64,000 bases of DNA from Williamsia soli (GTDB lineage Bacteria; Actinomycetota; Actinomycetes; Mycobacteriales; Mycobacteriaceae). The notes under the pieces are model-generated. The model was not told the DNA's origin. It made no database searches and saw nothing but the letters and a program-made list of their open reading frames with translations. The position numbers were made by a program, and so were the translations under genes. The DNA lies in assembly GCF_017377795.1 (NCBI RefSeq), contig NZ_JAFRDR010000014.1, positions 1-64,000 on the forward strand, read 5' to 3'. How positions within the stretch are numbered: the stretch's first letter is position 1; the number at the start of each line of letters is the position of its first letter. Positions 13,742 to 42,996 of the stretch are shown piece after piece.

Positions 13742-13742
13742 G

Positions 13743-15691: not shown

Positions 15692-17007
15692 ACTGGCACC
15701 TTGGCCGTTGCTTCAGTGAGCCGGCTTATCAACTCGGATGTCTCGTCGGCAGTTATATTTAGCGGGGGTTTGATCTTTACAATCGACGGGTCGTAACCTC
15801 CTAACCCAACGACCAGCCCGGCGTCAATGCAACGCATCCGCACCGTTGCAGCCAGGGACGCTCGTTGTTGCCAGGTTTCCGCGCAAACGCGTAACCCCAC
15901 GTGAAGCCCCACCTGCCTTATTTCGCTAAAAACCGTCGCCTGCGCGCACATCTGAGCAGAAGCATTCCTCAATTGGACCCCCCGATGTTTCACGTTGTTT
16001 AGCACATCGTCTCGGTCGATTATCTCCAGCTGTTTTATGCCGACACTATGGGCGAGCGCTGAAGATCCAAACGTGTGCAAGTCGTAGGTACCACCTCCTG
16101 GAAAGCCGTCGATGTCGGACCTCAGCAACACAGCTCCGGCAGCGAACCCGCCACAGAGTCCCTTTCCTAGCACGATGAAGTGCGGGCGTAGGAGCTCCGG
16201 CTGGGTGTAGTGGCGTCCAGTTCGCAGGTAGGTCTGAATCTCGTCAAATACGACTGTGAATCCCTCTTTGTCGGCACGACGTATCAGTGCGTTTAACCAC
16301 CAGACTGGGACTTCTCGCTGTCCACCCGAACCCTGCAGCGGCTCTACAACCACGGCGACCAACTTGTCTGCCACAGCATCAAGCTCGAGATTCATGACGG
16401 CGATAGCGCGTTCCCTCGCAACATCGTCGATGTCGGGATTGGAGTCAGGAAAACTGAGTGTCACTGAAGACACACCCATGTGGGCAAAGGCGGATAGACT
16501 CCGCCGGTTGCCGGGGACGTCGTCCGTAGCTGGCCAAGAAAGCTGCGCGGTTCCGAGCGTCGTGCCATGAAACCCGCCCTGCACTCGTCCAACCAGACTC
16601 CGGCCGGGACGGTTCAAAGTTGCAAGCTTAAGTGCAGTCTCGATCGCTAGTCCCGATGTGGCGGTGAACGCCACCTTCGCGTAGATATCGCGATGCTCAT
16701 TGCGAGGCACTGCATGAAGTAGCTTCTCCGCGAACTCCTCTCGACTGTCCGTTGCAAAACCTTGATGTACATGCCAAAAGCTGCGCATGACTTCGGCCGC
16801 ATGTTGCTGGATCTCATCGTGGGCGTGCCCGAGATATAGGGCCCAACTCTGAGATGTACAGTCTAGAAACTTTCGCCCTTTGCGATCCCACAGCCATACA
16901 CCTTTACCGCGCGCGAAATCTACCGTCGGCGTCCCTCCGCCCACCGTGACAGCGCTGCTGGGGGTGGGCCGCGGCGAGGACGGCTGGACGTTCTCCATGC
17001 TACTCAT
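15688..17007 (-). CDS. class III PLP-dependent aminotransferase
   Basis: 439 residues. The PLP Schiff-base lysine is in VLGKGLCGG (Lys282), and the pyridine-nitrogen aspartate is in VVFDEIQTYLRTGR (Asp255). The usual SGxEAxExAxKLAR segment reads TSGLAIETALKLA, with a changed substrate-proximal position. The family transaminates omega-amino groups and keto-sugars or aldehydes (ornithine, GABA, glutamate semialdehyde relatives). It overlaps the genes on both sides by four bases. In context it probably places an amino group on an oxidised intermediate made or used by the Gfo/Idh enzyme. Confidence 0.87.
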   Translation of the reverse strand: MSSMENVQPSSPRPTPSSAVTVGGGTPTVDFARGKGVWLWDRKGRKFLDCTSQSWALYLGHAHDEIQQHAAEVMRSFWHVHQGFATDSREEFAEKLLHAVPRNEHRDIYAKVAFTATSGLAIETALKLATLNRPGRSLVGRVQGGFHGTTLGTAQLSWPATDDVPGNRRSLSAFAHMGVSSVTLSFPDSNPDIDDVARERAIAVMNLELDAVADKLVAVVVEPLQGSGGQREVPVWWLNALIRRADKEGFTVVFDEIQTYLRTGRHYTQPELLRPHFIVLGKGLCGGFAAGAVLLRSDIDGFPGGGTYDLHTFGSSALAHSVGIKQLEIIDRDDVLNNVKHRGVQLRNASAQMCAQATVFSEIRQVGLHVGLRVCAETWQQRASLAATVRMRCIDAGLVVGLGGYDPSIVKIKPPLNITADETSELISRLTEATAKVPV

Positions 17008-18086
17008 GCGAACCCTGTTTCACTTGGAGAATATTGTGGTCCAAGGACGATACCGGAGGCTCCAAATCGATTAGGTCGAAGTATTATAGGCGCCGAGAAT
17101 GACTGGTGGTATATCTCATTGCTTCGAATGTCTGACGCTGTTGTCCGCCCGTGTAATTCGCGGTAAGAGACCACACCATTACCGTGTCGCACAGTCCCAA
17201 TTCGGTAAAGTTCACGGCCAAACGACGCAGCCACATCACCTAAGAGGCTTTCGTGGGAAGCTGCCGCGGTGAAAATGAGTCGATTGTCGCCAGCTAGACC
17301 CATTATCGCTAGGGCGTGCGGTTGAACTCCCATCTCTCTCTCGGCCAGCAGAGCAGAATTAGATAGAGGAACCATAGTCTCGTCGATATCGGCGCTAAGA
17401 CCGAGTGGCCGAACAAGGTCGCGAAGACACTTGTCCAGACCGTCGTTAGCGTCGGTACATGCAGAGACTAACCCGCTTGCGGCTAGTGCTTGACCAAACT
17501 CAAGCTCTGGCCGGTAGTCCACGAAGTCGTCACGGACTAGTATCCACTCGGACTCTGACAGATCCGCCCCCGCGTAGTTCAGTAGCGCCAGTGCTGAATT
17601 CCAGCCACCCGTTGGGCCGCTGATGAAGACTTGATCGCCACTTCGGGCCCCCGCTCGCGTCATCGGCGTGCAGTCGTCAATCGTGCCGATCACTGTGTTG
17701 CTGACGCCGAACTCGCCACGCGACATGTTCGAAGCCTGCAGAAGGTAGCCACCGTGTTCGACGAGTACGTCCTGCACCCCTTGTCCTACAGCATGGAAGT
17801 CAGCGTAATCGAAGGAACCGGGGGCCCTTAAATCGATCTGAACCCCGTGGAACTCAGCGCCAACTGCGGCGAGGTCGCTGATCGCCTCGATCAGCCCTCG
17901 TCGGACGAGGGACCGCACGTCTTCCCCCGGAAAGGCTTGGGTTGCACTGATATAATCGCTTGAGATCGCCAGGTGCCGACTGTTTTTCTGGTCCACGACG
18001 TACGCGTCAACCGGGCCTCGTATGTGTTGCGGGCATCCCTCGAGGACTGCGTTGATCGCCTCTGGCTCGTTCCACGCTGGACTCAC
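17004..18086 (-). CDS. ThiL/PurM-superfamily ATP-dependent enzyme
   Basis: 360 residues from GTG 18086. It resembles thiamine-monophosphate kinase and relatives (PurM, SelD, HypE). Recognisable are SDYIS (43-47), SDLAAVGAEF (70-79, matching the ThiL SDxAAMGG segment), GDQVFISGPTGGW (150-162) and TDANDGLD (211-218, matching DxSDGL). The GGDTTR metal/ATP segment of true ThiL is replaced by QASNMSRG, so it is unlikely to be the housekeeping kinase. First gene of the coupled operon. Predicted: ATP-dependent phosphorylation or activation of a carbonyl, amide or phosphate in a specialised pathway. Confidence 0.78.
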   Translation of the reverse strand: MSPAWNEPEAINAVLEGCPQHIRGPVDAYVVDQKNSRHLAISSDYISATQAFPGEDVRSLVRRGLIEAISDLAAVGAEFHGVQIDLRAPGSFDYADFHAVGQGVQDVLVEHGGYLLQASNMSRGEFGVSNTVIGTIDDCTPMTRAGARSGDQVFISGPTGGWNSALALLNYAGADLSESEWILVRDDFVDYRPELEFGQALAASGLVSACTDANDGLDKCLRDLVRPLGLSADIDETMVPLSNSALLAEREMGVQPHALAIMGLAGDNRLIFTAAASHESLLGDVAASFGRELYRIGTVRHGNGVVSYRELHGRTTASDIRSNEIYHQSFSAPIILRPNRFGASGIVLGPQYSPSETGFA

Positions 18087-20029: not shown

Positions 20030-21136
20030 TTAGTGGTTGATGGGTTCGGCCAGTGTGGTTGTGATGCGGTTGATTTCGGTGAGTGCGTATCCGGCAATCT
20101 GCTGTTGTCCTGCTTCGGCTGCGGGGTCGGTTTCTTCGAGGTCGCCGAGCACGATGATGTTCTCGTCGTTCAGGGTCGTCGCTGGTGCGGTGTAGTTGAA
20201 GCTGCCCACGATGGTCAGGCGTTCATCGATGACCATCAGTTTGTGATGGATCTTGCGGACGCCGGTACCAATGGTGTTGCGCGACAGTTCCACTCCCGCC
20301 TCGAGCAGTGGCGCGGTGGCGGCCCACTGTTGTCCGCCTTGTCCGCGGTCGATGACGCCCTGAAGCCGTTGTAGGGCGGGGGCCAGGCGGATCATGGTGT
20401 CGTCGATGCCGGAGGATTGAGCGAAGGTGAACATCGCGAAATCCACGCTGACAGCTGCTTTGAGCATCTGTTTCATGATTTCCATCTCGGGACCGTGCCG
20501 CGGTGCGAACAGCGGTTTGACCCGCACGCCGCCGAGCTTGAATTCGCGGGGCCGTGGTTCGACTCGTTCGTGCAGGTCTCCGAAGGTGCCCGAGCGCATG
20601 CGAGTGAACTCGTCGAGATACTGCCCGGCGGCGCGTTGACCCCGCAGGATCAGAACGTGATTGAGGTTGTTGCCGATCACGCGGCCGGTGGTGGCGGTGT
20701 TCGTGCCGGTGTCGGTGTGGGTGAAGTTCGCCGACCCGGTCAGCACGCCCGCCCCGGGTTGTCCGGCGTCGCGGACGACGAACTTTTGGTGAAAGATCGC
20801 GGGATTGAGGTCGGTGATGACGTCGATGCCGGCGCGCAGCAGCGCGGCGTAGATGGTGCGGTTGTCTTCGTTACCCCCGCCTAGCGCCCAGGGGTCCGCG
20901 GTCGCGGGCTTCTCGATCAGATAGTCGCCTTCTAAGATGATGCGCACGCGCAGTCGGTTGTGGGCGGCGGCGACGATAGCTTCGGCGATAGGCCGCGAGT
21001 CCAGTTCCTGCACCGCTATCGACAGTGAATGCTTGGCGCCGGAGATGAAGTCGCGGATCACAGCATCGATGTCGTCGGGTCCGCCGAGCACGGCAGGTCC
21101 CGTGAATAACTCGATACCGCCGACCTGAACGCCCAT
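20030..21136 (-). CDS. phospholipase D-like protein (two HKD motifs)
   Basis: 368 residues from ATG 21136 (MGVQVGGIELFTGP); the frame is open to 21289, but that extension would overlap the divergent CorA gene and has no family match. Two PLD motifs are visible: HQKFVVRD plus VLTGSANFT (about 116-140) and HHKLMVIDERLTIVGSFNYT (about 294-313). These give the paired HxK catalytic sites of one active centre. Members include phosphodiesterases, nucleases and lipid-cleaving enzymes. No signal peptide or membrane segment is seen, so a cytoplasmic phosphodiesterase is likely; the substrate is unknown. Confidence 0.85.
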   Translation of the reverse strand: MGVQVGGIELFTGPAVLGGPDDIDAVIRDFISGAKHSLSIAVQELDSRPIAEAIVAAAHNRLRVRIILEGDYLIEKPATADPWALGGGNEDNRTIYAALLRAGIDVITDLNPAIFHQKFVVRDAGQPGAGVLTGSANFTHTDTGTNTATTGRVIGNNLNHVLILRGQRAAGQYLDEFTRMRSGTFGDLHERVEPRPREFKLGGVRVKPLFAPRHGPEMEIMKQMLKAAVSVDFAMFTFAQSSGIDDTMIRLAPALQRLQGVIDRGQGGQQWAATAPLLEAGVELSRNTIGTGVRKIHHKLMVIDERLTIVGSFNYTAPATTLNDENIIVLGDLEETDPAAEAGQQQIAGYALTEINRITTTLAEPINH

Positions 21137-21315
21137 CTTCCGCACCCCCGGATGTTCGCCGACGCGTTCGACGCCCACGGTACCTCGCGGGTGATGCGTC
21201 TGAGGGGGCAACAGCCCGAGAAAACGCCTGCGGCCCGCACCACCATCGGGGAGCCGTGCCCCCAGGCGCGGGGCTAGGATGCGAGCCATTAGAGGGCATC
21301 GACGGGGGGTGGGGT

Positions 21316-23474: not shown

Positions 23475-23552
23475 AGACCCACAGCACACATAGCCGCCTG
23501 ACGACCCGCTGGTTGTTTGGTGATCTCGGCTCGATGGATGGTGTGGGGAAAG

Positions 23553-24608
23553 ATGGCCGGTGTGAGCGAACTGGCGCAGGTACCCGACGACTACGGCGAG
23601 GTGCTCGAGCAGCTCAAGACGAAAGTTCGTGGCGCTCGGGTGCAGGCCACCCGCACCGTCAACACTCAGCTTTTGGTGTTGTACTGGGATATCGGCCGGG
23701 CGATCCTCGACCGCCAGGACGCCCGCGGCTGGGGTAGCCGGGTCATCGATCGGCTTGCGGCCGATCTGCGGGCAGAGTTCCCCGAGATGCGGGGATTCTC
23801 CCGCAGCAACCTGCACTACATGCGCACCATCGCCGGCACGTGGCCGCGGGAGGCAATTGTCCAACAGCCTGTTGGACAATTGCCGTGGGGGCACCTCACC
23901 GTCCTGATCGACAAGCTCGACGACCACGCTACCCGCAACTGGTACGCCGCCGCTGCGGTCCAGCACGGCTGGTCGCGGGCTGTATTGACGCACCAGATCC
24001 GCAACCACCTCGACCAGCGGGTCGGTGCGGCGCCCACCAACTTCGGCGACCACCTACCGCCCGCGGACTCCGACCTGGCCCATCAATTGGTCCGCGACCC
24101 CTACGTATTTGACTTCCTCGACATCAACGAACGCGTCGCCGAACGCGAACTCGAAGCCGCCCTGATGACCCGGCTGGAGCGGTTTCTCCTCGAACTCGGG
24201 CATGGGTTCGCCTTCGCCGGCCGTCAGTACCACTTCAACGCCGGCGGCGACGACTTCTACATCGACCTGCTGTTCTTCAACTGGATACAGTCCCGGTTCG
24301 TCGTCGTCGAGCTCAAAGTCGGCAGATTCGAACCCGAGTACTTGGGCAAGCTCGGCTTTTACGTGTCCTGGGTCGATGACAACCTCCGCGACCACGACCG
24401 GCACGCCCCGACCATCGGCATCCTGCTCTGCGCCGGCCGCAACGACAAAGTCGTGCGCTACTCCCTCGCCGGCACCACAGCGCCGCTGGCGGTCGCCGAC
24501 TACACCTACGACACCCTGCCCGCCCTCGTTCGCGAGCTGGTGCCCACCGACGATGAACTGGCCTCCGCCGTCGACGAAACCATCACCCATCTCGACGCCG
24601 ACACCTAG
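23553..24608 (+). CDS. DUF1016 / YhcG-type PD-(D/E)xK nuclease-domain protein
   Basis: 351 residues from ATG 23553 (MAGVSELAQVP). The N-terminal DUF1016_N part includes LLVLYWDIGRAI, RGFSRSNLHYMR and QQPVGQLPWGH. The C-terminal nuclease core has FYIDLLFFN (Asp about 238) and VVVELKVG (Glu-x-Lys about 252-254), a complete PD-(D/E)xK set. YhcG-family proteins occur in bacterial chromosomes, plasmids and defence loci; roles in DNA handling are proposed but not settled. It is stand-alone here, between a transporter and decayed or mobile DNA. A perfect 12-bp inverted repeat lies inside the gene (23854-23882). Confidence 0.87.
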   Translation: MAGVSELAQVPDDYGEVLEQLKTKVRGARVQATRTVNTQLLVLYWDIGRAILDRQDARGWGSRVIDRLAADLRAEFPEMRGFSRSNLHYMRTIAGTWPREAIVQQPVGQLPWGHLTVLIDKLDDHATRNWYAAAAVQHGWSRAVLTHQIRNHLDQRVGAAPTNFGDHLPPADSDLAHQLVRDPYVFDFLDINERVAERELEAALMTRLERFLLELGHGFAFAGRQYHFNAGGDDFYIDLLFFNWIQSRFVVVELKVGRFEPEYLGKLGFYVSWVDDNLRDHDRHAPTIGILLCAGRNDKVVRYSLAGTTAPLAVADYTYDTLPALVRELVPTDDELASAVDETITHLDADT

Positions 24609-25702: not shown

Positions 25703-27553
25703 TCAACCGCGGCGGAGATCTGAAGGTGCCCGGGAACCGAACTTTGTCGGGCGGCTGGGGTGGAGTGGTGGATAAATGAGGGTCAGGGTCGATCCGAGTG
25801 TGAAGTAGCTGCGTAGCAGGCGGAAACAGAGGTACATCGGGATGTACCTCACCGCGCTCGGACGCCAGATCACACACACCACGACCGTCATGATCATCGA
25901 CATCCCTAGCAAGGTCGCGACCACAGGTTGCCATTGCAACGACGAGAACGTCGAGCCGAAGGCGACGCCGGCGATCACCGCGAAGATGATCAATGGGGCG
26001 AGCATCGCACGACGGGCGGCGTTGACGAGGTTGAACGGCAAGACGAAGGTCCCCACCATCGTGCGTCGGTCCAGCAGCATGGCCCGGTTGCGGGCACTGA
26101 GGTGGTAGATGCTGCGGAACCACCGGGTGCGTTGTTCTCGGAGGTGAGCGTACGACGCCGGGGTCTCGCTGTAGTACACCGCTTTCGGGTCGGCGACACT
26201 GCGGTAGCCCGCAGTGGTCAGACGCATACAGATGTCGGTGTCTTCGCCGTTCATTCCCTGGACCATTCCGCCGACCCTGAGCAACTGGTTACGGCGATAG
26301 ACCGCGAACATACCCGGAATACCCATGACACCTTGGTATCCGTCCAGCGACACCTGGAAGAAGCCATGACGCATGTACACCTCGATGAGTCGGCACTTGT
26401 CTATCCAGGTCTTCTCTTCGGCAGGCATGGGAATTCCTCCGACACAGCCGACTTCGGGATCTGCGAAGTGCTTCATCGCTGTTTCCAGGCAGCCCGGCCC
26501 GATGACGGTGTCGGCGTCGATACGGACTACGAACTCCTCGGTGATCCGCGCGATGCCCAGATTCAACGCGATGGCTTTGCCCGGTGTCGGGCACTCGAGT
26601 ACCTCCCCGGTGATGTGAGCACACTCCCCGATCGCTTCCCCCGCAACGGCGGCAGTCGCGTCCGTGGATGCGTTGTTCACCACGTACAGACGAATGCGCC
26701 CTGGATATGTCTTTGCCGCGTCGTCGACGGCCGCGATGGTGGCAGCGATGCTGTGGCCTTCGTTGTGCGCGGGCACCAGTATGGCTGTGGGCGGTGAGAA
26801 CTCGTGATTGCGTGACTTCTTCAGTGCGTGAGCGCCGAACAGCGCTGTGGAGGCCGCCAGCAGTTGCTGCATCAAGAAGACACCGGCACCGATGCCTCCG
26901 AGGATTGCCCAGTGCTTCAGTGTTTCCACGACGTCGAAGAAGACGTGGAGGGCGAGGGCCGCACCTACGATCGCGAACGCGAGGCACCCGACCAGTGTCG
27001 CGAACGCTGCAGGGTCGATTCGCCCTTCATGGCGCTGCGGCCCCTGCACCGGGAGTTGGGCCTGTCTCAGAACCGTGTGCGGGAAGATACCGAGAGCGAT
27101 GAGCCCGGACAACATCTGGGCACCGTAGACGGAGATCGAGACGATGCCGGCATCGTGCAGTAACCAGGTCAAGAAGTCGATGAGGAAGCAGAAGACAGCG
27201 TACTTGCCGAGCAGGGAAGCACCGAGCGCGATCCGCCGCCAGACATTGCTGTACGCGTGGATGGCGTAGGTCAGAAAGAACAGGACCAGGAACAGTCGGA
27301 GCGGGAACACCACTTGTCCGCGGGCTTCGTGGAGCACGACCAAGTCGCGGGGCAGGTCGTCCCAGCCACCGGCATGGACGATCACGGTACGGGCACACAT
27401 GGCGATGATGGACACCCCCGCGAACGTGATCAGGAAGCCGTTGGTCCCGCTCGGCGGTCGGTCGACTGCGTAGCCGACCGGCGCGCTGTCGACTGAGCGG
27501 AAATGGTCCGCGATCGCCTCGGTGTGTTCCGGTCCATCCTCGAGTGCGGTCAT
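25703..27553 (-). CDS. processive GT2 membrane glycosyltransferase (cellulose/hyaluronan synthase-like)
   Basis: 616 residues from the start at 27553 (MTALEDGPEHTEAIADHF); the open frame extends upstream but would overlap the BcsB-like gene. About five N-terminal membrane helices precede a GT2 domain with ILVPAHNEG, VVNNASTDAT, VRIDADTV (DxD-type), GMNGEDTDICMR (catalytic base region) and QRTRWFRS (QxxRW). Further helices form the C-terminal part. QxxRW and flanking helices mark processive synthases that polymerise and export a glycan. It is co-transcribed with a BcsB-like protein and SqdB, so sulfoquinovose may be the donor sugar; that link is inference. Confidence 0.85.
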   Translation of the reverse strand: MTALEDGPEHTEAIADHFRSVDSAPVGYAVDRPPSGTNGFLITFAGVSIIAMCARTVIVHAGGWDDLPRDLVVLHEARGQVVFPLRLFLVLFFLTYAIHAYSNVWRRIALGASLLGKYAVFCFLIDFLTWLLHDAGIVSISVYGAQMLSGLIALGIFPHTVLRQAQLPVQGPQRHEGRIDPAAFATLVGCLAFAIVGAALALHVFFDVVETLKHWAILGGIGAGVFLMQQLLAASTALFGAHALKKSRNHEFSPPTAILVPAHNEGHSIAATIAAVDDAAKTYPGRIRLYVVNNASTDATAAVAGEAIGECAHITGEVLECPTPGKAIALNLGIARITEEFVVRIDADTVIGPGCLETAMKHFADPEVGCVGGIPMPAEEKTWIDKCRLIEVYMRHGFFQVSLDGYQGVMGIPGMFAVYRRNQLLRVGGMVQGMNGEDTDICMRLTTAGYRSVADPKAVYYSETPASYAHLREQRTRWFRSIYHLSARNRAMLLDRRTMVGTFVLPFNLVNAARRAMLAPLIIFAVIAGVAFGSTFSSLQWQPVVATLLGMSMIMTVVVCVIWRPSAVRYIPMYLCFRLLRSYFTLGSTLTLIYPPLHPSRPTKFGSRAPSDLRRG

Positions 27554-27563
27554 GAAAGCCCGG

Positions 27564-29486
27564 TCACCGAGATGGATTCGCTGTGGCCGGATCACTCGCG
27601 CGGGTGGTTCCGTCCGGATAGATGACGAAGCTGCCCTGGCTCGTGATGACTTGTGCAGGTTCGGTTCCGAATGCCGGGAGCGTGAGCAGCCCAGGACTGC
27701 CTGCGTATTGGATGACCAAGCCGGCCGTACTGGTGTCACTGGTGGCGGGTTCGACGATCATGCCGGTGTCGAACGCCGAGATGTTCAGATTCGGTGTTGC
27801 CGGTCCGGCTTCGATCCGGCCGTCGGTCAGCCGAACCAGAGGATCGGTGGTCGCGCTCTGGCCGATGAGGACAAACGGTTGACCCGGGGCCGGCTCGGCA
27901 TTCCACAGGATATTCGGATCGTACTGCGCCGGTGTGAATTTGGTGAGTACCGGAACGATCGCGTTGAGCTGTTCGATCGCCGCCGGCGCGGGAGCATCGG
28001 GAAGGTAGACCGCAAACCCTCCGGCCAAGTCCCGAGGAACGGACGTGAAACCGCTACCACCATCGTCACCGAGGAGCAGTGCCGAGCTCGGCTCCAGTTG
28101 CATCGGATAGGTTGTCACCCGAACGTCGCATCCACCGAGATCTCGATCGCGTTGAACTGTGAGTGTCAGCGAGTTCTCCAGCAATTGCGCCGCCGGCGGT
28201 AGCGCGATCGTTACCTGGCTTGCCGTCGAATTCAGTCGTCGACTGTCGATCAGCTGCCCGTTCAGTTGGGTGTTCAGGATCCAGGTCAGATCGTCCGGGG
28301 CTGCGGGCAGCGACAGAGCGACCCGCACCGCTTGCGGCAATCTCCCGCCGGGCAGGTCGGCGAGGGAGTAGCCGGAGCCCCACCGATGGCTGTCCGCGAT
28401 CTGGACCACAGTCGTGTCGGCGCCAAGAGCGTCCAATCCGACTTCGTTTCCGTCGGGAACAGGAGAGGAAAGTATCTGCGGATCGCTCTGTCCGGAGTCA
28501 GCCGTTTCGACTGTTGGTGTCGTCAAGAACCGTGAGATCAACGCGCCGTCGGGTTCGAGAACCGCCACGACAGGGTTCTTCTTCACAGTGCCCATCTGCA
28601 GCGGATCGTCGGAGTCGTCGGAGCCCGACCAGTTCAGATCTTCGATCGCCTGCCGCGGGCCGACCAGGATTGTGTTCTCAACGTCTTCATCGGGCACTTC
28701 ACCCGAGAAGGTCACCTCGTGACCCGATCGGGTCAGCGCTATGCCAAGGTGGGCCGCCGTTGTGCGCCATGGGTCACCGGTGTCGGCGAGGACGACGGTG
28801 ACCCGGCGATCCCAGGACACCACGGCGTCGCGGATGGTGTGGACACGTTCGTCCAGTGCTGCCTCGACGACACTCGCCGGGTCGAGGTGGACCTGCATAC
28901 CGGCCGAGTGATCAGGAGTGCACGTCCGGTCGTCGAGCGTTCCCTGGACCAGCGCCTGGACACGAACCTGCCCGTCGCTCGAGAGCTGATCGGGAACGTC
29001 GATCAAGGCCTCCAGGGGATTGCTCCCCCGCGGCAATTCGCTCTTGAAGACCTGCTGGCCGTCCATCCGGATGACCAGGAACACCACGCTGTCCTGTGCC
29101 ACCTGGGTGGTACCGGTCAACTTCAGCCGGGTCTCATCGCGCCCGGAATCGGCCGGGAAGGCCACGAGAAAACTCGACGACGGGGAATCGTCCGTCAGCC
29201 AGACGCCGTCCTCGTAGCCCGCACCGGACAGCGACTTCGTGAAATGCCGATCGGCCGGGACGTCGAGACTGTCGTCGTCGGCGTCACGATCGAACCAGGA
29301 CGGCCGTACGATCACGAATGCGAGCAGCAGCACCAGTGCGATGCCGAGCACCCACCACGCCGAACGAGGTACCGAACGCCCCTGCTCACCGCGAAAGTAC
29401 TCGGGGTCAGTCCGGTCAGCCCGGCGCACATCCTCATTCGGTGCCCCCGGCCGAGCGTCGCCCTCGGGTGAGTCGTCGTCGCTCAT
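27564..29486 (-). CDS. BcsB-like membrane-anchored glycan synthase partner
   Basis: 640 residues. One N-terminal membrane helix (about 43-62, SAWWVLGIALVLLLAFVIV) is followed by a large extracytoplasmic region. That region has beta-sandwich character resembling the cellulose synthase subunit BcsB (FLVAFPADSGRDETRLKLTG; ALPPAAQLLENSLTLTVQRD). BcsB guides the nascent polymer after the membrane synthase. The stop is 10 bases before the glycosyltransferase start and the start overlaps SqdB by four bases. Most BcsB proteins have a C-terminal tail anchor; here the anchor is N-terminal. The BcsB call is by pattern and context. Confidence 0.7.
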   Translation of the reverse strand: MSDDDSPEGDARPGAPNEDVRRADRTDPEYFRGEQGRSVPRSAWWVLGIALVLLLAFVIVRPSWFDRDADDDSLDVPADRHFTKSLSGAGYEDGVWLTDDSPSSSFLVAFPADSGRDETRLKLTGTTQVAQDSVVFLVIRMDGQQVFKSELPRGSNPLEALIDVPDQLSSDGQVRVQALVQGTLDDRTCTPDHSAGMQVHLDPASVVEAALDERVHTIRDAVVSWDRRVTVVLADTGDPWRTTAAHLGIALTRSGHEVTFSGEVPDEDVENTILVGPRQAIEDLNWSGSDDSDDPLQMGTVKKNPVVAVLEPDGALISRFLTTPTVETADSGQSDPQILSSPVPDGNEVGLDALGADTTVVQIADSHRWGSGYSLADLPGGRLPQAVRVALSLPAAPDDLTWILNTQLNGQLIDSRRLNSTASQVTIALPPAAQLLENSLTLTVQRDRDLGGCDVRVTTYPMQLEPSSALLLGDDGGSGFTSVPRDLAGGFAVYLPDAPAPAAIEQLNAIVPVLTKFTPAQYDPNILWNAEPAPGQPFVLIGQSATTDPLVRLTDGRIEAGPATPNLNISAFDTGMIVEPATSDTSTAGLVIQYAGSPGLLTLPAFGTEPAQVITSQGSFVIYPDGTTRASDPATANPSR

Positions 29487-30679
29487 TCGCTCTGCTCCTG
29501 GGCCGCCGACCTGCGATCACCGTTCCAGTAGGAGACGCAGGGTATTCGGCTGACGTCGATGCGATCGGCGTACTTCTGGGCGATCTCCGCCGATTCGGCC
29601 AGGAGACCCGACACCAGCCGGGTGGGTTCCAGGCCCAACTCGGTGAGGTGATCGTTGCGGGCCTCGAGATCATTCATATCGGCTTCGGCGCGCGGGTTGA
29701 GCACCGGGCCGACGGTGGCCCCGGTGGTGGCTGCCACCAGGTCCGCCAGGTCGCGCACCCGATGCGTCTCGGTCAACTGGTTCATCACCCGGACGCGTCC
29801 GGACACCTGGGCCCCTGACTCGACGGCGAGGCGGATGCAGTGCACCGAATCCCTGATGTTGATGAACGCTCGTGTCTGACCACCGGAGCCGTGGACGGTC
29901 AACGGGTATCCCACCGCCGCTTCGACAAGGAACCGATTCAAGACGGTTCCGTAGTCGCCGTCGTAATCGAACCGGTTGATGAGTCGGTCATCCCGTCTCG
30001 TTTCGTCGGTCTGGGTCCCCCAGACGATCCCCTGGTGAAGGTCGGTGATCCTCACGTTGTCGTTGCGGGCGTAGAACTGGAACAACAACTGGTCCATCGA
30101 TTTGGTCAGGTGATAGACGCTGCCCGGTGCAGTGGGATAGAGGATCTCGCGCGTGTGCAGGTCACCGTTCCGGTCCGGGTAGCTGACAGACAGGTATCCC
30201 TCCGGCAGGTCTACGGGCACAGACTCGTACCCGTAGACACCCATCGTGCCCAGATGAACGATATGGATATCAAGGCCAAGATCGACGACCGCAGCGAGGA
30301 GATTGTGCGTGACGTTGATGTTGTTGTCGACGGTATAACGCTTATGTGCAGGCGTTTTCATCGAGTATGGAGCTGCCCGTTGTTCTGCGAAGTGAACAAC
30401 ACAATCCGGCCGAATCGCAGCGAGCATGGAAATGAGGGATTCGTAGTCATGCGCGAGGTCCAGTTCGACGAAATCCATGCCGTTCCCGGATTCCGAGCGC
30501 CACGCATCCAGTCGCTCGTCGATGGTGGCGATCGGAGTGAGTGAGCGCACCCCGAGTTCGTCGTCGATTCGGCGACGAACAAGGCTGTCGGCGATGATGA
30601 CATCGTGGCCGTGTTCAGAAAGATGCAATGCCGTGGGCCAACCGCAGAATCCGTCGCCGCCGAGGATCACCACCCGCAT
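29483..30679 (-). CDS. sqdB: UDP-sulfoquinovose synthase (SqdB/SQD1 family)
   Basis: 398 residues from ATG 30679, which has GGGAGGTGG seven bases upstream; the frame is open to 30775 without a better start. An extended SDR with the family-typical nucleotide motif LGGDGFCGWPTALHLS (6-21), TMGVYG, the catalytic YHLTK, and ETRRDDRLINRFDYDGDYGT. It converts UDP-glucose plus sulfite to UDP-sulfoquinovose in the cytoplasm. No SqdX-type glycolipid transferase is nearby; instead it is coupled to a BcsB-like protein and a processive GT2. The last ten codons overlap the next gene's start region. Confidence 0.9.
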   Translation of the reverse strand: MRVVILGGDGFCGWPTALHLSEHGHDVIIADSLVRRRIDDELGVRSLTPIATIDERLDAWRSESGNGMDFVELDLAHDYESLISMLAAIRPDCVVHFAEQRAAPYSMKTPAHKRYTVDNNINVTHNLLAAVVDLGLDIHIVHLGTMGVYGYESVPVDLPEGYLSVSYPDRNGDLHTREILYPTAPGSVYHLTKSMDQLLFQFYARNDNVRITDLHQGIVWGTQTDETRRDDRLINRFDYDGDYGTVLNRFLVEAAVGYPLTVHGSGGQTRAFINIRDSVHCIRLAVESGAQVSGRVRVMNQLTETHRVRDLADLVAATTGATVGPVLNPRAEADMNDLEARNDHLTELGLEPTRLVSGLLAESAEIAQKYADRIDVSRIPCVSYWNGDRRSAAQEQSE

Positions 30680-30722
30680 TGTCGCCACCTCCCGACGCCA
30701 TGTGTACTTCTGGATGATCTCT

Positions 30723-30998
30723 CTAAACTGTTTGCGCTGCTTTTCTTTTGCTGCGACCCCGAGCGGTGAGGACACCCGCGAGCCAGCCGACCGCGAACAG
30801 AACGATCAGAATGAACCACAACGGCGACCGAACACTGACCCAGAACAGATCGACGGAAATCGAGTCCCGGTTCTGGAGGATGAACACGACCGCCAGAATC
30901 GTCAGAATCAGAGCTATCCCCCGCGACAGGGAGAGAGCCGGAAGTGAACGGCCTTTCGCGGGCACGTTTCCGGTGCGGCGGTCGGTGCTGTCAGACAT
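30723..30998 (-). CDS. LapA-domain small membrane protein
   Basis: 91 residues from ATG 30998 (MSDSTDRRTGNVPAKG). Two membrane helices (about 25-43, IALILTILAVVFILQNRDS, and 53-72, WFILIVLFAVGWLAGVLTAR) with the NRDSISVDLFW linker are the LapA (lipopolysaccharide assembly protein A) domain pattern. A basic C-terminal tail follows. Actinobacterial members have no established function. It is the first gene of the minus-strand operon, 43 bases before sqdB, and divergent from the alkyl sulfatase gene. Confidence 0.82.
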   Translation of the reverse strand: MSDSTDRRTGNVPAKGRSLPALSLSRGIALILTILAVVFILQNRDSISVDLFWVSVRSPLWFILIVLFAVGWLAGVLTARGRSKRKAAQTV

Positions 30999-31242
30999 AC
31001 CTGAGAGGCTACTGCCGCGCGTCACCATTGTCCGCGCTTCAGCGAATCAACGCGACCTTGACCATAATTTCTGAGCAGCACACTTGACCCGATTTTTCAT
31101 CACTCTTCCGGCGTCGCTGATCGCTATTCACGACGCACAGCAGAAATGAAAGGACACCCGACGTCGCTATCGATTCATATTGCCTGCGCTGCAGTCCAAC
31201 ACAGGTAACAATGGTTCTCACGACGTCAAACCAAGGAAAGGC

Positions 31243-33153
31243 ATGGTGAGCGTGATGGGAAATCCGCAAGAAGCCACTTCGTCCGTGGCCGATGCGAACT
31301 CGGCGGCGCGTTCCTCGCTTCCATTCGGTGACACCCGCGATCTGGACAATGCCTCCCGTGGGCTGATCGCGACTCTGGATTCATCGGTGATCGCAGGCGA
31401 CGACGGCAATCCGGTGTGGGATTGCGCCGAATTCGACTTCCTCACCGAAAGCTGCCCACCCACCGCCAATCCCAGTCTGTGGCGACAATCGGAACTGGTT
31501 GCCCGGCACGGTCTGTACGAGGTGACCGATCGCGTGTATCAGATCCGAGGATTCGATCTGTCGAACATGACCCTCGTCGAGGGTGACACCGGCGTGATCG
31601 TCATCGATCCGCTGATCTCGGCCGAGACCGCGGCCGCGGGTCTCCAGCTCTATCGGGAACAGCGTGGCGACAAACCGGTGGTTGCCGTCATCTATACCCA
31701 CTGCCACATCGATCACTTCGGCGGTGTCAAAGGGGTCACCACTCAGGAGGCTGTGGACGCCGGCGACTGCCTGATCGTTGCTCCGTCGGGTCTGGTTGAA
31801 CACGCTGTGGCCGAGAATGTTTATGCCGGAACAGCTATGGGACGCCGGGCCGCCTACATGTACGGCGCGGCACTGCCCCGCGGCCCGCAAGGCGCCGTCG
31901 GAGCCGGCTTGGGTCAGTCGACATCCACCGGGCACGCCGGACTCATCTCACCGACGGTGAACATCTCGAAGACCGGTCATACCGAAACCATCGATGGCGT
32001 GACCATCGAGTTCCAGATGACCCCCGGCACCGAGGCGCCCGCGGAGATGAACTTCTACTTCCCGCAGATGCGCGCTCTGTGTATGGCCGAGAACGCCACC
32101 CATACGCTGCACAATCTGCTGACGCTGCGCGGCGCGCTCGTCCGGGATCCGCACGTGTGGTCGAAGTATCTGACCGAAGCAATCAACCTGTTTGCCGGCC
32201 GCTCGGACGTATTGTTCGCTTCCCACCACTGGCCGACCTGGGGCACCGACGAACTCACCGAGTTTCTCGCACTCCAGCGTGACCTCTACGGATATCTGCA
32301 CGACCAGACTCTGCGGGCCCTCAATCAGGGCAAGACCGGCCTGGAGATAGCCGAGGACATCCAACTGCCGCCCGCCTTGGGCGAGGCGTGGCACACCCAC
32401 GGGTACTACGGCTCGGTCAGCCACAACGTGAAGGCCATCTATCAGCGATACATGGGGTGGTTCGACGGCAATCCAGCCCACCTATGGGAACACCCTCCGG
32501 TCGAGTCGGCGAAGCGTCACGTGGAGTTCATGGGCGGTGTCGAGGCTGTGGTCGAGAAAGCGCGAAAGACTTACGCCGATGGCGACTTCCGGTGGACGGC
32601 GACCGTCCTCAACTACGTACTGTTCACCGACCCGGACCACGTCGCGGCCAGGGATCTGCAAGCAGACACCCTCGAGCAACTCGGATACGGCGCCGAGAAC
32701 GGGACCTGGCGGAACTTCTTTCTGATGGGTGCCTACGAGCTGCGCAACGGAGCGGTGGGCACCCCCACCACCGCCGCCGCGCCTGACATCATCGCCGCCA
32801 TGACCGTCGAGCAATTGTTCGATGCGATCGCGCTGCGCCTCGACGGGCCGGCGAGCTGGGACGCTCACATCACGATCGACTGGGTCATCAGCGATCAGAA
32901 CCGCCGACATCGCACCGAATTGCGCAATGGTCTCCTCGTCCACTTCGACGTTCCCGACGACGGACCCGGATCCGCCGAGGCGACGTTCACCCTGACCAAA
33001 ACCGCACTGCTGAGCGTGTTGCTGGGAGGGGTCGACCTTCAGAGCGCCATCTCAGACGGTGCGGTGTCCGTCGACGGAGACGCGACACGATTCGCCGAAC
33101 TCGCCGGTTACCTCGACCAACCCGACCCCGATTTCGCCATCGTCACACCCTGA
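31243..33153 (+). CDS. alkyl sulfatase, SdsA1-type metallo-beta-lactamase fold
   Basis: 636 residues from ATG 31243, preceded by AAGGAAAGG; a TTG-like start at 31180 and an ATG at 31255 are alternatives. The metallo-hydrolase motif THCHIDHFGG (about 152-161) binds two zincs. Then come MAENATHTLHNLLTLRG and the HHWP segment typical of linear primary alkyl sulfatases, an alpha-helical dimerisation domain, and a C-terminal SCP2-like domain. It releases sulfate from alkyl sulfates such as SDS-like esters. No signal peptide is obvious, unlike secreted SdsA1. It adds to the sulfur theme of the element. Confidence 0.9.
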   Translation: MVSVMGNPQEATSSVADANSAARSSLPFGDTRDLDNASRGLIATLDSSVIAGDDGNPVWDCAEFDFLTESCPPTANPSLWRQSELVARHGLYEVTDRVYQIRGFDLSNMTLVEGDTGVIVIDPLISAETAAAGLQLYREQRGDKPVVAVIYTHCHIDHFGGVKGVTTQEAVDAGDCLIVAPSGLVEHAVAENVYAGTAMGRRAAYMYGAALPRGPQGAVGAGLGQSTSTGHAGLISPTVNISKTGHTETIDGVTIEFQMTPGTEAPAEMNFYFPQMRALCMAENATHTLHNLLTLRGALVRDPHVWSKYLTEAINLFAGRSDVLFASHHWPTWGTDELTEFLALQRDLYGYLHDQTLRALNQGKTGLEIAEDIQLPPALGEAWHTHGYYGSVSHNVKAIYQRYMGWFDGNPAHLWEHPPVESAKRHVEFMGGVEAVVEKARKTYADGDFRWTATVLNYVLFTDPDHVAARDLQADTLEQLGYGAENGTWRNFFLMGAYELRNGAVGTPTTAAAPDIIAAMTVEQLFDAIALRLDGPASWDAHITIDWVISDQNRRHRTELRNGLLVHFDVPDDGPGSAEATFTLTKTALLSVLLGGVDLQSAISDGAVSVDGDATRFAELAGYLDQPDPDFAIVTP

Positions 33154-33174: not shown

Positions 33175-34146
33175 ATGTCGGTGTTGATACCGGACAACCA
33201 GCGTCGCTCTACCGACGAACTCGACGAACGCCTCGATCTGGCGATCGGTGACAGCCGGGCAAAGCAGTCCGCGTTCTGGGTGATGCTGCTGCTGTCGAGC
33301 GTGATCGCCGCAGCGGGTATCACGTCAGATTCGACCGCCACGGTGATCGGCGCCATGATCGTCGCTCCGCTGTCGACACCGATTCTGGGTGTGGGACTCG
33401 GCATCGTCACCGGCCGGGGAGCCCTCATCGCGCGCAGCCTGCTCTACGTCCTCGCCGGCATCGTCCTGGTCGTGGCCGTCGGGTTCCTCCTTGCCCAGCT
33501 GCTCCCGAATCCGACGAACGTGTTGTCGAACTCCCAAGTTCTTGGCCGCACCTCGCCGACGCTGATGGACCTCCTGGCCGCACTCGCCACCGGGCTGGTC
33601 GGTGCCGTCGCCATCACCCGCCGCGACGTCGGAGACGTCTTGCCTGGTGTCGCGATCGCCATCTCGCTGGTTCCCCCACTCGCGGTCGCAGGAGTGTGCC
33701 TGGGTTCGTCGGCACCGATCCTCGCACTCGGCGCGTTCGTACTCTTCGCCTCCAACGTCATCGCGATGATCATCACCGCAGCGGTGGTGTTCATCGTTGC
33801 GAAATACCACGTCTCAGCCGACGACCGCCGTCACCAGCGCGCACGGGCCTACCTGGTGCTGACGGTAGCGCTTGTCGTGGTGGCGGTGCCGATGGTGGTC
33901 AACTCGTTGTCATCGCTGTGGGCCCGCCAGGTTTACACCGCCACCGAGGACTGGCTGTCCGGGACTCCTGGGGCAGATGTCTCAGGGGTGACCTGGCACG
34001 GCAACAAGGCGACCATCACCGTATTGGGACCACCTACGCTCCCACCCATAGCCGACTTGGAGGCGTCGGTAACCGACCTGCTGCCCTGGCACCCCACCAT
34101 CACCTTGATCCATGACTTCGGCACCACGATGAACGAACCTGAGTAG
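33175..34146 (+). CDS. DUF389 family multi-pass membrane protein
   Basis: 323 residues with AAGGA about eight bases before the ATG. The N-terminal segment (LDERLDLAIGDSRAKQSAFW) leads into the DUF389 domain. Its hallmark TVIGAMIVAPLSTPILGVGLGIVTG is followed by five to six hydrophobic helices and then a soluble C-terminal tail. Function is not established for the family. It lies 21 bases after the alkyl sulfatase and is probably co-transcribed. Confidence 0.87.
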   Translation: MSVLIPDNQRRSTDELDERLDLAIGDSRAKQSAFWVMLLLSSVIAAAGITSDSTATVIGAMIVAPLSTPILGVGLGIVTGRGALIARSLLYVLAGIVLVVAVGFLLAQLLPNPTNVLSNSQVLGRTSPTLMDLLAALATGLVGAVAITRRDVGDVLPGVAIAISLVPPLAVAGVCLGSSAPILALGAFVLFASNVIAMIITAAVVFIVAKYHVSADDRRHQRARAYLVLTVALVVVAVPMVVNSLSSLWARQVYTATEDWLSGTPGADVSGVTWHGNKATITVLGPPTLPPIADLEASVTDLLPWHPTITLIHDFGTTMNEPE

Positions 34147-36304: not shown

Positions 36305-38041
36305 CTACTGCTCACGATCGTTTGGCTGTGGTGCGGCCGCCGGACCGGTATCGTCCGGCGGCCCATCGGCCAGAGCCTGCGCGACGGCCGGGAAGATCTG
36401 CAGATCCGTGCCCGGGGCGGCGGCGTGAATGACGTCGCGGAACTGGCCTACATCGCGTGCAATGCGGAACGCAACTCCTCTGTGGGCCAGGGAATCATGA
36501 AGTTCGACGAGCATCGACACCGCGCTGACGTCGATGAACGGTGATGTTTCGGCGTCGAGAACGATGGTGCCGACATCTGACCCGGCCAGGGCGGTGATCC
36601 GGTCGCGGACATCGTCGGCGTTGGCGAAAAACAACCCGGCCTCGACGCGCACAACTTTCACCCCGGTGAGCTGCCGCGAGTCTGCCTCGCCAGCGGCCGC
36701 CTCCACCCACCTGGTTCCGTCTTTGACCAACGTCGCCACGTGCGGCCGCGAGACCCGGTAGAGCAGCAGCAGCATGGACACGGCGACGCCGATGACCAGA
36801 CCGGGCAGGGTGTCGAATACCAGCACCCCAAACAGCGCCGCCAGGGCAGCGATGAAATCGACCCGGGTCGCGCGTCCGTAGATGCTGCCCAGCCGGGTGG
36901 TCCACACCCGGTACAGGCGCCGTAACGCGGCGATGTCGACGAGCTCGATAACCGCAGCGATCACCACCGCGGCCAGTGTCGCGTCGGGCAGTTTCTCGAA
37001 TAGGCCGGTCAGCAGCAGCAAGGTCAGGACGGTCAGCATCGCAACGACGAGCCCGCTCACCTGCGTCTTGGCGCCGGCGCCCCCGTTGACCGCGGTCTTC
37101 GACAGACTGCCGTTGACGACCATGCCTGAACACAGACCGGATCCGACATTCGCGGCGCCGAGGCCGATGAGTTCGCGGTTGGCATCGACGGTGTACCCAG
37201 CCTTGGCGGCATAGGTTTTCGCCGCCCCGAGGCCTTCGGCGAATCCGATCAGCACGATCCCGACTGCGGGACCGACCAATGCGAGGTACTGATCCATCGA
37301 CACCCCGGACGGCAGCCCGAGTGAAGGCAGCCCCGGATCGATGTGTCCGACGATGGCAACGCCTTTGTCGTCGAGGTCCAGCAGCCACACCGCACCGATC
37401 CCGCCCAGGACTGCCACCAGCGATCCGGGGACCAGCGGGAGCCACCGCCGGATCGCCAGCACGAGTACGAGGCTGGCGACGCCGATGATCGTGGTCCGCC
37501 AATTCCATTCCGTCACATGGGTGATGAAGGAACCGGTTTGTTCGAAGAAGTTCCCTGACCCTTTCGGCACGCCGAACAGTTTGGGGATCTGTCCGATGAT
37601 GATGGTCAGCGCGAGTCCGACGATGAACCCTTTGAGAACCGGTTCGGAGATGAACGAGGCGATGAACCCCATCCGCAGGGCACCGGCTATCAGGGCCACC
37701 ACACCGGCCGCGATCGACAACGCGACCGTCGTAGCGAGAAACAGTTGCGGATCGTCACCGGCGATCGGGCCGACGATGGCCGCCGACAACGCCGCAGTCG
37801 CCGACATCGGACCGACCACCAGATGTCTCGAGCTCCCGGCCGCCGCATACAGCACCAGCGCCGGAACTGCCGCATACAAACCCACCACCGCCGGAACCCC
37901 GGCAATCGCCGCATACGCCAGGGCCTCGGGCACCAGAACCGCCCACACCGTCAGCCCAGCCACCACATCGGGCCGCAGGTACGCCGAGCGATAGTGGTGC
38001 AGCGACGTGAACACAGCCCCGCCCAGGCGCAGCGATGTCAT
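36305..38041 (-). CDS. SulP-family inorganic anion transporter with STAS domain
   Basis: 578 residues from ATG 38041 (MTSLRLGGAVFTSLHHYRSAY). The membrane domain has the SulP signature PEALAYAAIAGVPAVVGLYAAV and VGPMSATAALSAAIVGP. The C-terminal STAS domain starts near residue 440 (GVKVVRVEAGLFFANADDVRD, with IVLDAETSPFIDVSAVSML holding the conserved Asp-x-Ser). Members carry sulfate, bicarbonate, chloride or other anions. The start is about ten bases after the stop of the upstream DUF1254 gene, so both are one transcript. Sulfate import would suit the SqdB and sulfatase neighbours but is inferred. Confidence 0.9.
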   Translation of the reverse strand: MTSLRLGGAVFTSLHHYRSAYLRPDVVAGLTVWAVLVPEALAYAAIAGVPAVVGLYAAVPALVLYAAAGSSRHLVVGPMSATAALSAAIVGPIAGDDPQLFLATTVALSIAAGVVALIAGALRMGFIASFISEPVLKGFIVGLALTIIIGQIPKLFGVPKGSGNFFEQTGSFITHVTEWNWRTTIIGVASLVLVLAIRRWLPLVPGSLVAVLGGIGAVWLLDLDDKGVAIVGHIDPGLPSLGLPSGVSMDQYLALVGPAVGIVLIGFAEGLGAAKTYAAKAGYTVDANRELIGLGAANVGSGLCSGMVVNGSLSKTAVNGGAGAKTQVSGLVVAMLTVLTLLLLTGLFEKLPDATLAAVVIAAVIELVDIAALRRLYRVWTTRLGSIYGRATRVDFIAALAALFGVLVFDTLPGLVIGVAVSMLLLLYRVSRPHVATLVKDGTRWVEAAAGEADSRQLTGVKVVRVEAGLFFANADDVRDRITALAGSDVGTIVLDAETSPFIDVSAVSMLVELHDSLAHRGVAFRIARDVGQFRDVIHAAAPGTDLQIFPAVAQALADGPPDDTGPAAAPQPNDREQ

Positions 38042-38050
38042 CGGCAAGGG

Positions 38051-39658: not shown

Positions 39659-40318
39659 GTGGGCACAGTCATCGGTGATCTTCTGCCACTGGCGGTCGGT
39701 GTGGCCGTCTCCCCGGTCCCCATCATCGCGGCCATCTTGATGCTGCTGTCCAAACGAGCCGGCAGTACCAGTGTGGGATTCGCGCTCGGCTGGCTGGCCG
39801 GGATCGTGGTCGCCACCACCATCTTCGTAGCGCTGGCCGGAGCCATCACCACCTCCGACGACGGTCCGTCGACGACCGCGTCGGTGATCAAACTCGTTCT
39901 GGGCGTTCTACTGCTAGCGGTGGGCGCGCGGCAGTGGCGTGGCCGCAGCGGCGAGCATGCCACCCCGAAATGGATGGCCGCGATCGACGACCTCACCGCC
40001 GCCAAAGGTTTCGGTCTCGCATTCGCGCTCGCCGCCATCAACCCGAAGAACCTCCTCATGTGTGTGGCCGCCGGCGTCACCATCGGCGGGGCGTCGTTGT
40101 CGCTGGGACAGCAGATCGGTTCCGTTGCGGTCTTCACGGTGATCGCCGCGTCCACCGTCGCGATCCCGGTGATCGGCTACCTCGTTGCCGCACAACGCTT
40201 GAGAGCACCACTCGACGCCCTCAAACAATGGCTCCAGGCGAACAACGCGACAGTCATGGCCGTCCTGATCCTCGTCATCGGCGTCGTGCTCATCGGCAAA
40301 GGTGTCGGCGGCCTGTAG
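39659..40318 (+). CDS. GAP/Sap family (sulfolipid-1-addressing-type) membrane protein
   Basis: 219 residues from GTG 39659 with AAGGAG nine bases upstream. Six hydrophobic helices with the family pattern LPLAVGVAVSPVPIIAAILML and NPKNLLMCVAAGVTIGGASLS, as in the LysE/GAP group of exporters. The mycobacterial namesakes assist export of sulfolipid-1 and glycopeptidolipid to the cell surface. Presence beside SqdB and a GT2 synthase suggests surface export of a sulfonated glycolipid or glycan; that is inference. Confidence 0.85.
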   Translation: MGTVIGDLLPLAVGVAVSPVPIIAAILMLLSKRAGSTSVGFALGWLAGIVVATTIFVALAGAITTSDDGPSTTASVIKLVLGVLLLAVGARQWRGRSGEHATPKWMAAIDDLTAAKGFGLAFALAAINPKNLLMCVAAGVTIGGASLSLGQQIGSVAVFTVIAASTVAIPVIGYLVAAQRLRAPLDALKQWLQANNATVMAVLILVIGVVLIGKGVGGL

Positions 40319-41358: not shown

Positions 41359-41364
41359 CGCTGA

Positions 41365-42843: not shown

Positions 42844-42962
42844 GAACGCTGATAATAGGCGAGTAACTCGCAGATTTCAGGAGTTCTTGCCAACTTTTCT
42901 ACCGCTTCCTAGATCCCAACTCGAAGGCCGTGACCAGCAGACACGCAGCAACCTCGGTCAAT

Positions 42963-42981
42963 CAGGACCGATGGAACCCGT
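42963..42981 (-). repeat. right imperfect terminal inverted repeat of element
   Basis: Read on the minus strand as ACGGGTTCCATCGGTCCTG. It shares ACGGGTTC and TCCTG with the left-end copy at 25476. It lies 15 bases inside the inferred right junction, not 5 as at the left end, so the pair may be recombinase binding sites and not strict termini. Confidence 0.4.
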
Positions 42982-42996
42982 CTGCACTCCAGTGGA

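Follow-up and report, generated by a model that had tools for sequence, protein, structure and literature searches.

The 64,000 nucleotides analysed here (the window; positions 1 to 64,000 of contig NZ_JAFRDR010000014.1, assembly GCF_017377795.1 of Williamsia soli) contain a candidate machine for an exported, sulfoquinovose-containing glycan. It consists of three minus-strand genes that form a tight operon in the order SqdB, BcsB-like protein and membrane-bound GT2 glycosyltransferase:

29483-30679, minus strand: SqdB-type UDP-sulfoquinovose synthase, 398 residues (assigned from NF041015, the SQD1 structures 1i24/1qrr, motifs and identity to the Sinorhizobium meliloti enzyme)
27564-29486, minus strand: periplasmic/exoplasmic subunit with predicted BcsB fold, 640 residues (AlphaFold2 model, Foldseek and VIA)
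25703-27553, minus strand: multi-pass membrane GT2, 616 residues (Pfam GT2, AlphaFold2 model and structural matches)

An initial annotation had described an SqdB gene overlapping a BcsB-like gene that is followed by a membrane GT2 with a QxxRW motif, and all three were found on the minus strand in that order. The SqdB gene most likely starts at ATG 30679, which is preceded by the Shine-Dalgarno-like GGGAGGTGG and preferred over a longer GTG start at 30775; the aligned SqdB homologues begin at the same point. Its end overlaps the BcsB-like gene by 4 bp (ATGA), and the GT2 gene starts at ATG 27553 after a gap of 10 nt behind the BcsB-like stop, the longer GT2 open reading frame (ORF) that reaches 27739 being read-through. 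The region up to 30998 also covers most of a 101-residue LapA-domain-like ORF (30723-31028; Pfam 27.8 bits, just under the 28-bit cut-off).

The first gene has the hallmarks of a UDP-sulfoquinovose synthase. The Arabidopsis SQD1 structures 1i24/1qrr match it over its full length (E 3e-97, residues 33-416 of the long ORF), and its identity to S. meliloti Ak57 SqdB, whose gene has a GT8-type, sqdD-like neighbour, is 61%. It contains the motifs HFAEQR, TMG and YHLTK; in the SqdB alignment HxAEQR and YHL[ST]K are present in 16/16 members and [ST]MG in 15/16. Excerpts of PMC8987622 give [ST]MG...Yx3K as the fingerprint of UDP-sulfoquinovose synthases, which the window SqdB carries, and excerpts of PMC4388408 report that alanine mutants of a His, Arg, Met, Tyr and Lys inactivate Agl3, residues matched by motif to H96, R101, M146, Y189 and K193. 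The score against NCBIfam NF041015 (329.5 bits) is lower than the curated equivalog cut-off of 575, a shortfall that carries little weight because the S. meliloti Ak57 protein scores 332.1 bits on the same model. We infer that the window SqdB, the only copy in its genome, acts on UDP-glucose and sulfite.

The BcsB-like protein was recognized through its structure model. On its own it has no match in Pfam (including PF03170) or NCBIfam, and a PDB sequence search with it returned just two unrelated rows (E about 0.1). With the threshold relaxed to E 10, a very permissive setting, PF03170 matches 10/16 of the aligned homologues, the best at E 2.3e-5, and three related proteins, from loci L056, L071 and L093, score 26.3, 42.4 and 21.4 against a gathering score of 21. 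With the AlphaFold2 model (15 rows, mean pLDDT 73.7, pTM 0.69) as query, the first 22 Foldseek rows were all BcsB, headed by 7l2z_C (E 2.2e-24, TM about 0.51). VIA aligned the model to 9fmt_C (Z 14.8, rmsd 7.1, 478 residues) and 6yg8_B (Z 14.7, rmsd 6.6, 513 residues), and overall the BcsB rows cover 449-513 residues at rmsd 6.6-7.4, with Z 11.3-14.8 for the Escherichia coli rows. Rows of Rhodobacter BcsB, at Z 10.4-10.6, are level with single-domain rows such as the non-BcsB chain 6za2_A, which reaches Z 10.3 over 126 residues; as full-length structural relatives only BcsB chains of cellulose synthase complexes were found. As modelled, the protein thus has a BcsB fold over most of its chain. 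Its N-terminal helix (41-60) is long enough to span a membrane and is a putative anchor. BcsB has a C-terminal membrane anchor; the C-terminal part of the model consists of strands and coil with no helix, and the chain stops 13 residues past the last BcsB-aligned residue. Since neither PF03170 nor the C-terminal anchor was found, we name the protein BcsB-like and not BcsB.

Processive membrane GT2 enzymes such as cellulose synthase BcsA and hyaluronan synthase (HAS) share the motifs D, DxD, ED and QxxRW. In the window GT2 these appear as D298, DAD 346-348, GED 436-438 and QRTRW 474-478. The residues D298, D346, D348, E437, D438, Q474, R477 and W478 are invariant in 83/83 collected GT2s, which also have a basic residue at position 395 (K in 43, R in 40) and retain H396. 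The AlphaFold2 model is of moderate confidence (mean pLDDT 68.3) and shows the arrangement of BcsA and HAS, in which a GT-A domain is joined to transmembrane and interface helices. In VIA it aligns to Chlorella virus HAS (8sne_A; Z 21.3, rmsd 3.0, 364 residues) and E. coli BcsA (9fnn_A; Z 20.9, rmsd 3.4, 329 residues), and the HAS and BcsA rows cover 311-372 residues of the GT2, transmembrane part included. Two named synthases were considered and rejected: cellulose synthase proper (TIGR03030, 32.7 bits against a cut-off of 699) and poly-GlcNAc synthase, whose model TIGR03937 is the top NCBIfam match, yet scores 100.7 against 422.3 bits.

The locus shares features with several known systems and differs from each of them. 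It shares with BcsA-BcsB a multi-pass GT2 with the D, DxD, ED and QxxRW motifs adjoining a BcsB-fold partner, but unlike BcsA the GT2 has no Pfam match to PilZ and stays far under the TIGR03030 cut-off, and unlike BcsB the partner has an N-terminal helix and none at the C-terminus of the model. In contrast to a bcs operon, SqdB is the first gene, the BcsB-like gene precedes the GT2 gene, and a Pfam scan of 30 window ORFs found no bcsC- or bcsZ-type family. Chlorella virus and Xenopus HAS are similar in their multi-pass GT2 structure, although sequence identity is only 14-17%; HAS needs no BcsB partner, whereas the window GT2 lies beside a BcsB-like gene. SqdB itself shares fold family, motifs and a full-length match with SQD1, SqdB and Agl3, but its linkage is with the genes for a membrane GT2 and its BcsB-like companion, not with a lipid transferase gene or with N-glycan synthesis as in archaea. 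Compared with the sqdB-sqdD and sqdB-sqdX pathways to the sulfolipid sulfoquinovosyldiacylglycerol (SQDG), the donor enzyme is the same, whereas GT2 and BcsB-like protein take the place of the GT8-type SqdD-like or GT4 SqdX-like transferase.

That the triplet would be conserved in relatives was borne out, first of all, in the window's own family. A BcsB-like gene is present in 14 of 201 family genomes, and all 14 carry SqdB in the triplet, so that BcsB was found without SqdB in none of the 201; SqdB as such is present in 19, and the 14/14 overlap has a hypergeometric probability of 9e-18 when genomes are treated as independent. For comparison within the family 16 BcsB loci were fetched (15 from 13 other genomes, and one plasmid). 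A homologous GT2 gene adjoins BcsB in 16/16 of them and SqdB lies in front in 15/16, the exception being a second copy in genome G145. This second BcsB-GT2 pair (L024/L070) is followed by a 531-residue ORF that has no Pfam match, and the same genome has a full triplet. In a wider survey, a GT2 profile scan of named genomes found 126 relatives, and among the best 80 of these 126 the genes for SqdB, BcsB and GT2 stand in that order on one strand in 60 loci, 19 actinobacterial and 41 alphaproteobacterial. The former come from Rhodococcus, Nocardia, Gordonia, Prescottella, Speluncibacter, Nocardioides and Mycolicibacterium, some of the 19 being contigs already in the family search; the latter bear mostly Rhodobacterales names, together with Devosia, Novosphingobium and Rhizobiaceae. 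The genes of L051 are broken, and the BcsB of L109 was identified in a separate scan; row set A1 excludes L034 (BcsB in two pieces) and row set A3 excludes L027 and L030 (stop in the extracted sequence). The three genes therefore recur in fixed order far more often than chance would allow. SqdB was also found somewhere in all 23 genomes searched for it, 19 without a linked SqdB at the GT2 locus and four with triplets.

The phylogeny of SqdB agrees with this pattern and backs the conservation of the triplet further. In a quick IQ-TREE reconstruction of 106 SqdBs (L160 was left out as too short), a branch with a Shimodaira-Hasegawa-like approximate likelihood-ratio test (SH-aLRT) support of 95 has the actinobacterial and alphaproteobacterial triplet SqdBs together on one side. 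The 65 rows on this side are 64 triplet SqdBs and one unlinked SqdB, that of Devosia sediminis (L205). Triplet SqdBs are separate from sqdD-linked (SH-aLRT 100), GT4-linked (89) and Maricaulis-type SqdBs. At another D. sediminis locus (L071), an OpgC-family gene (PF10129; 6792-8015, plus strand) adjoins the BcsB-GT2 pair, and the triplet-type SqdB lies elsewhere in the genome.

Outside the triplet, SqdB has other partners. The five family genomes with SqdB but without BcsB all belong to one other genus and have a GT4 gene directly beside SqdB; the GT4 of one such genome was scanned and resembles lipid glycosyltransferases. We take the labels SqdD (GT8-type) and SqdX (GT4), and their roles in SQDG synthesis, as given. 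An sqdD-like gene was absent at E 1e-10 from 23 of 24 genomes with pair or triplet, the exception being Hoeflea (G588), and in the window's genome the best SqdD-like match had only E 0.245. The expectation that no lipid transferase competes for the product of SqdB therefore held for SqdD. For SqdX, nothing closer than 32% identity turned up in the window's genome, to which this search was confined. The query was an uncharacterised protein, SqdX-like by inference: the GT4 encoded next to SqdB in G002 (L151). In six other loci a GT4 adjoining SqdB shares 43-75% identity with this query. A scan for the GT4 signature gave none among the longest non-overlapping ORFs, where antisense ORFs win in GC-rich DNA, and two over all ORFs.

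Two further observations concern SqdB in other settings. At L145 (7018-9309, minus strand) and L146 (6018-7994, plus strand) a single long ORF matches both SqdB (653 bits) and 3'-phosphoadenylyl-sulfate (PAPS) reductase (115 and 107 bits), possibly a natural fusion of the sulfite-making and sulfite-using enzymes in two genomes of one genus. On a plasmid of Rhodobacteraceae M382 (L120:12001-15764) the neighbours of SqdB are a sulfotransferase and a phosphoadenylyl-sulfate reductase, and glycosyltransferase genes are close by, a hint that sulfoquinovose glycans may have other loci that lack BcsB.

The surroundings of the window triplet contain several genes with links to sulfur or to the cell envelope, and a possible means of mobility:

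31180-33153, plus strand: alkyl sulfatase (metallo-beta-lactamase fold), divergent from SqdB, sole copy found in the genome (PF14863, 214.5 bits)
33175-34146, plus strand: DUF389 membrane protein, a recurrent neighbour (profile match)
36305-38047, minus strand: SulP-family anion transporter, a recurrent neighbour (TIGR00815, 362 bits, under the cut-off of 380.45)
39659-40318, plus strand: SfLAP/Sap ("sulfolipid-1-addressing protein") membrane protein, sole copy found in the genome (PF11139, 180.9 bits)
40414-42843, minus strand: two phage-type integrases adjacent to the cluster, possibly conferring mobility (PF00589)

In 29 actinobacterial loci, counted by tblastn with the named genes within 10 kb of GT2 and leaving out duplicate contig fetches, we found SqdB in 28, alkyl sulfatase in 16, SulP in 13, DUF389 in 12 and a Sap-like gene in 11. 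These counts are lower bounds because the flanks are uneven in length, and the window's own Sap-like gene, 12 kb from GT2, falls outside the limit and is uncounted. Across 14 genomes there are 29 alkyl sulfatase matches, and in 10/14 genomes one lies within 10 kb of the triplet (chance estimate about 0.1 genomes); the Sap/SfLAP family has 28 matches and lies within 10 kb of the triplet in 7/14. In the window's genome the sole match of each is within this cluster. The actinobacterial neighbours hint at sulfur supply and envelope placement. The triplets of Rhodobacteraceae (loci L073-L114) have other recurrent companions: a hybrid histidine kinase, whose family is present in 26 of the 65 loci clustered, a LuxR-type response regulator (20 loci) and a small protein of ~165 residues with a hit to the molybdopterin domain Oxidored_molyb (18 loci). 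The Sap query had no match in the alphaproteobacterial triplet loci fetched.

The initial annotation had also placed the three genes on a mobile element, which is borne out only in part. Two phage-type integrases and an IS110-family transposase occupy 40414-45414 at the edge of the sulfur-related cluster, the BcsB-like gene is absent from all eight same-genus genomes listed, and the cluster of one relative sits on a 523-kb plasmid, which makes a location on a mobile element plausible. Elsewhere in the window, 12207-18086 has lower GC (0.55-0.57) and tightly ordered NUDIX, GFO/IDH/MocA oxidoreductase, class III aminotransferase and AIR-synthase-like genes, possibly a biosynthetic cluster. Defence-like genes lie at 6047-7741, 23517-24608, 20030-21289, 50029-53119 and 55553-58171 (Eco57I-type methylase, YhcG/DUF1016 nuclease, phospholipase D (PLD) protein with a weak DrmC match, McrBC-type pair and SMC-like ATPase).

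Taken together, we consider it probable (roughly 0.6) that a BcsA/HAS-like synthase draws on UDP-sulfoquinovose and exports a glycan containing sulfoquinovose. The initial annotation had predicted such a glycan, and the conservation of the triplet and the absence of an sqdD-like gene from 23 of 24 genomes speak for it. The operon would specify both proteins of a membrane synthase resembling those for cellulose and hyaluronan, and also the enzyme producing the sugar donor. Its genetic linkage to SqdB suggests that the GT2 accepts UDP-sulfoquinovose, and its product would be an exported polymer. Judging from fold and linkage, the GT2 would add sulfoquinovose to a growing chain, alone or alternating with another UDP-sugar, and thread this chain through its transmembrane part. 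The BcsB-like protein, anchored by one N-terminal helix, would, as its fold suggests, take up and guide the chain outside the membrane, and the surface glycan made in this way would be anionic and sulfonated. More speculatively, the actinobacterial alkyl sulfatase, SulP and Sap-like protein could supply sulfur and help with the placement of the product in the envelope. A broader proposal, which we put forward tentatively and regard as doubtful in its full extent, is that of a two-phylum synthase family that polymerises UDP-sulfoquinovose into an exported polysulfonate, a sulfoquinovan resembling a "sulfonated cellulose", and that would thus be a use and an environmental source of sulfoquinovose besides sulfolipid.

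A number of observations weigh against this interpretation, and most concern the tie between the synthase and SqdB. In 20 of the 80 GT2 loci no SqdB lies beside BcsB-GT2; 17 of these belong to Maricaulis, Oceanicaulis and kin, where BcsB and GT2 are on opposite strands, and the others are L070, L071 and L093, the last from Hoeflea, whose only SqdB is sqdD-linked. The 16 Maricaulis-group SqdBs in the tree are placed away from the triplet SqdBs, while in the midpoint-rooted GT2 tree the Maricaulis-type GT2s are sister to the actinobacterial GT2s, so this GT2 family may use more than one donor. An ancestral cassette whose linked SqdB was lost or replaced in the Maricaulis group would be a simple history. 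In the order of Maricaulis SqdB is present in 12/12 GT2-bearing genomes but in 83/200 overall (1.6e-5), an association to which we give little weight because SqdB is so frequent in the order and the 12 genomes are related. A draw of 394 genomes of the window's class contained SqdB in 21, and among the 20 besides the window's genome the triplet was found only at L143, the 19 other SqdBs being in other settings or cut by a contig end (L153, L159); SqdB as such therefore does not imply BcsB-GT2, whereas triplet-type SqdB does. Of four plasmids with a BcsB-like match one has the triplet. The cluster on plasmid pR8L1 of Rhodococcus sp. 008 (L237) is a decayed copy, in which only remnants of the BcsB-like gene and of the GT2 end are left, immediately ahead of an alkyl sulfatase gene, and the Hyphomicrobiales UR115 plasmid has a distant BcsB-GT2 pair that lacks an SqdB gene within 6 kb. 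Finally, a filter for GT2 positions common to both triplet groups and absent in Maricaulis-type GT2s retained only seven, mostly conservative ones (such as Y460F and S462T), and no sulfoquinovose donor signature can therefore be named.

Structure comparison also leaves room for a different product. The best VIA match of the GT2 is the archaeal mannosyltransferase PcManGT (6yv7_B; Z 25.2, rmsd 3.5, 333 residues), and soluble GT-A enzymes come near Z 20 over shorter spans (9omm_B, 20.9 over 221 residues), almost the level of HAS and BcsA. These matches would suit a non-processive GT2 that makes a small glycolipid or a lipid-linked sulfoquinovosyl oligosaccharide, carried outward by the BcsB-like and Sap-like proteins. 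Such a product would also fit the Sap/SfLAP gene beside the cluster in 11 of the 29 actinobacterial loci, and mycolate-bearing hosts have many surface glycolipids. Nevertheless, we regard it as unlikely: because soluble GT-A enzymes reach such scores, the telling point is not Z but the transmembrane span that the GT2 has in common with HAS and BcsA, the BcsB-like model has no full-length structural relatives other than BcsB of cellulose synthase complexes, and the fetched alphaproteobacterial triplet loci are devoid of Sap matches.

Two other explanations retain the polymer synthase, or at least the GT2, but change the sugar. SqdB might serve ordinary SQDG synthesis while the proteins encoded next to it use UDP-Glc or UDP-GlcNAc for an unrelated glycan, for instance cellulose or poly-GlcNAc, as the 61% identity of SqdB to an SqdB with an adjoining sqdD-like gene and the 20 loci with an unlinked BcsB-GT2 pair could suggest. 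This we think improbable given the lack of sqdD-like genes in nearly all genomes concerned, the lack of a close SqdX-like gene in the window's genome (to the extent that the uncharacterised query can tell), the grouping of triplet SqdBs across two phyla, and the division within the family, where BcsB never occurs without SqdB and the GT4-linked SqdBs are in the five genomes lacking BcsB. Alternatively, the SqdB homologue could make another nucleotide sugar for the GT2, either UDP-glucose-5,6-ene or a product with another nucleophile. According to excerpts of PMC8987622, UDP-sulfoquinovose synthases form the 5,6-ene when sulfite is absent, and the curated NF041015 cut-off was missed; the S. meliloti SqdB, however, scores alike on this model, and its three motifs are retained throughout the aligned members but for a single [ST]MG. 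We rate this possibility lowest, slightly below that of an SQDG enzyme with unrelated neighbours.

Sulfoquinovose is usually traced to the sulfolipid SQDG, and archaeal glycoproteins are another known use (excerpts of PMC4388408). Within the open-licence literature of PubMed Central, as far as its excerpts go, we found no description of a bacterial sulfoquinovose polysaccharide synthase or of an SqdB-BcsB-GT2 cluster, which is weak evidence of absence; the predicted synthase is a variant of the BcsA/BcsB and HAS kind, whose partnership with SqdB we did not find in print there. Conservation of the cassette in two phyla and its frequent location among sulfur-related genes in actinobacteria go beyond what the initial annotation had claimed. 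If the proposed exported glycan is correct, the SqdB-BcsB-GT2 cassette of soil actinobacteria and marine Rhodobacteraceae would extend the uses of sulfoquinovose to a sulfonated polysaccharide, would offer a test case for donor choice within the cellulose/hyaluronan synthase family, and would represent a non-lipid source of sulfoquinovose for the bacteria that degrade it.

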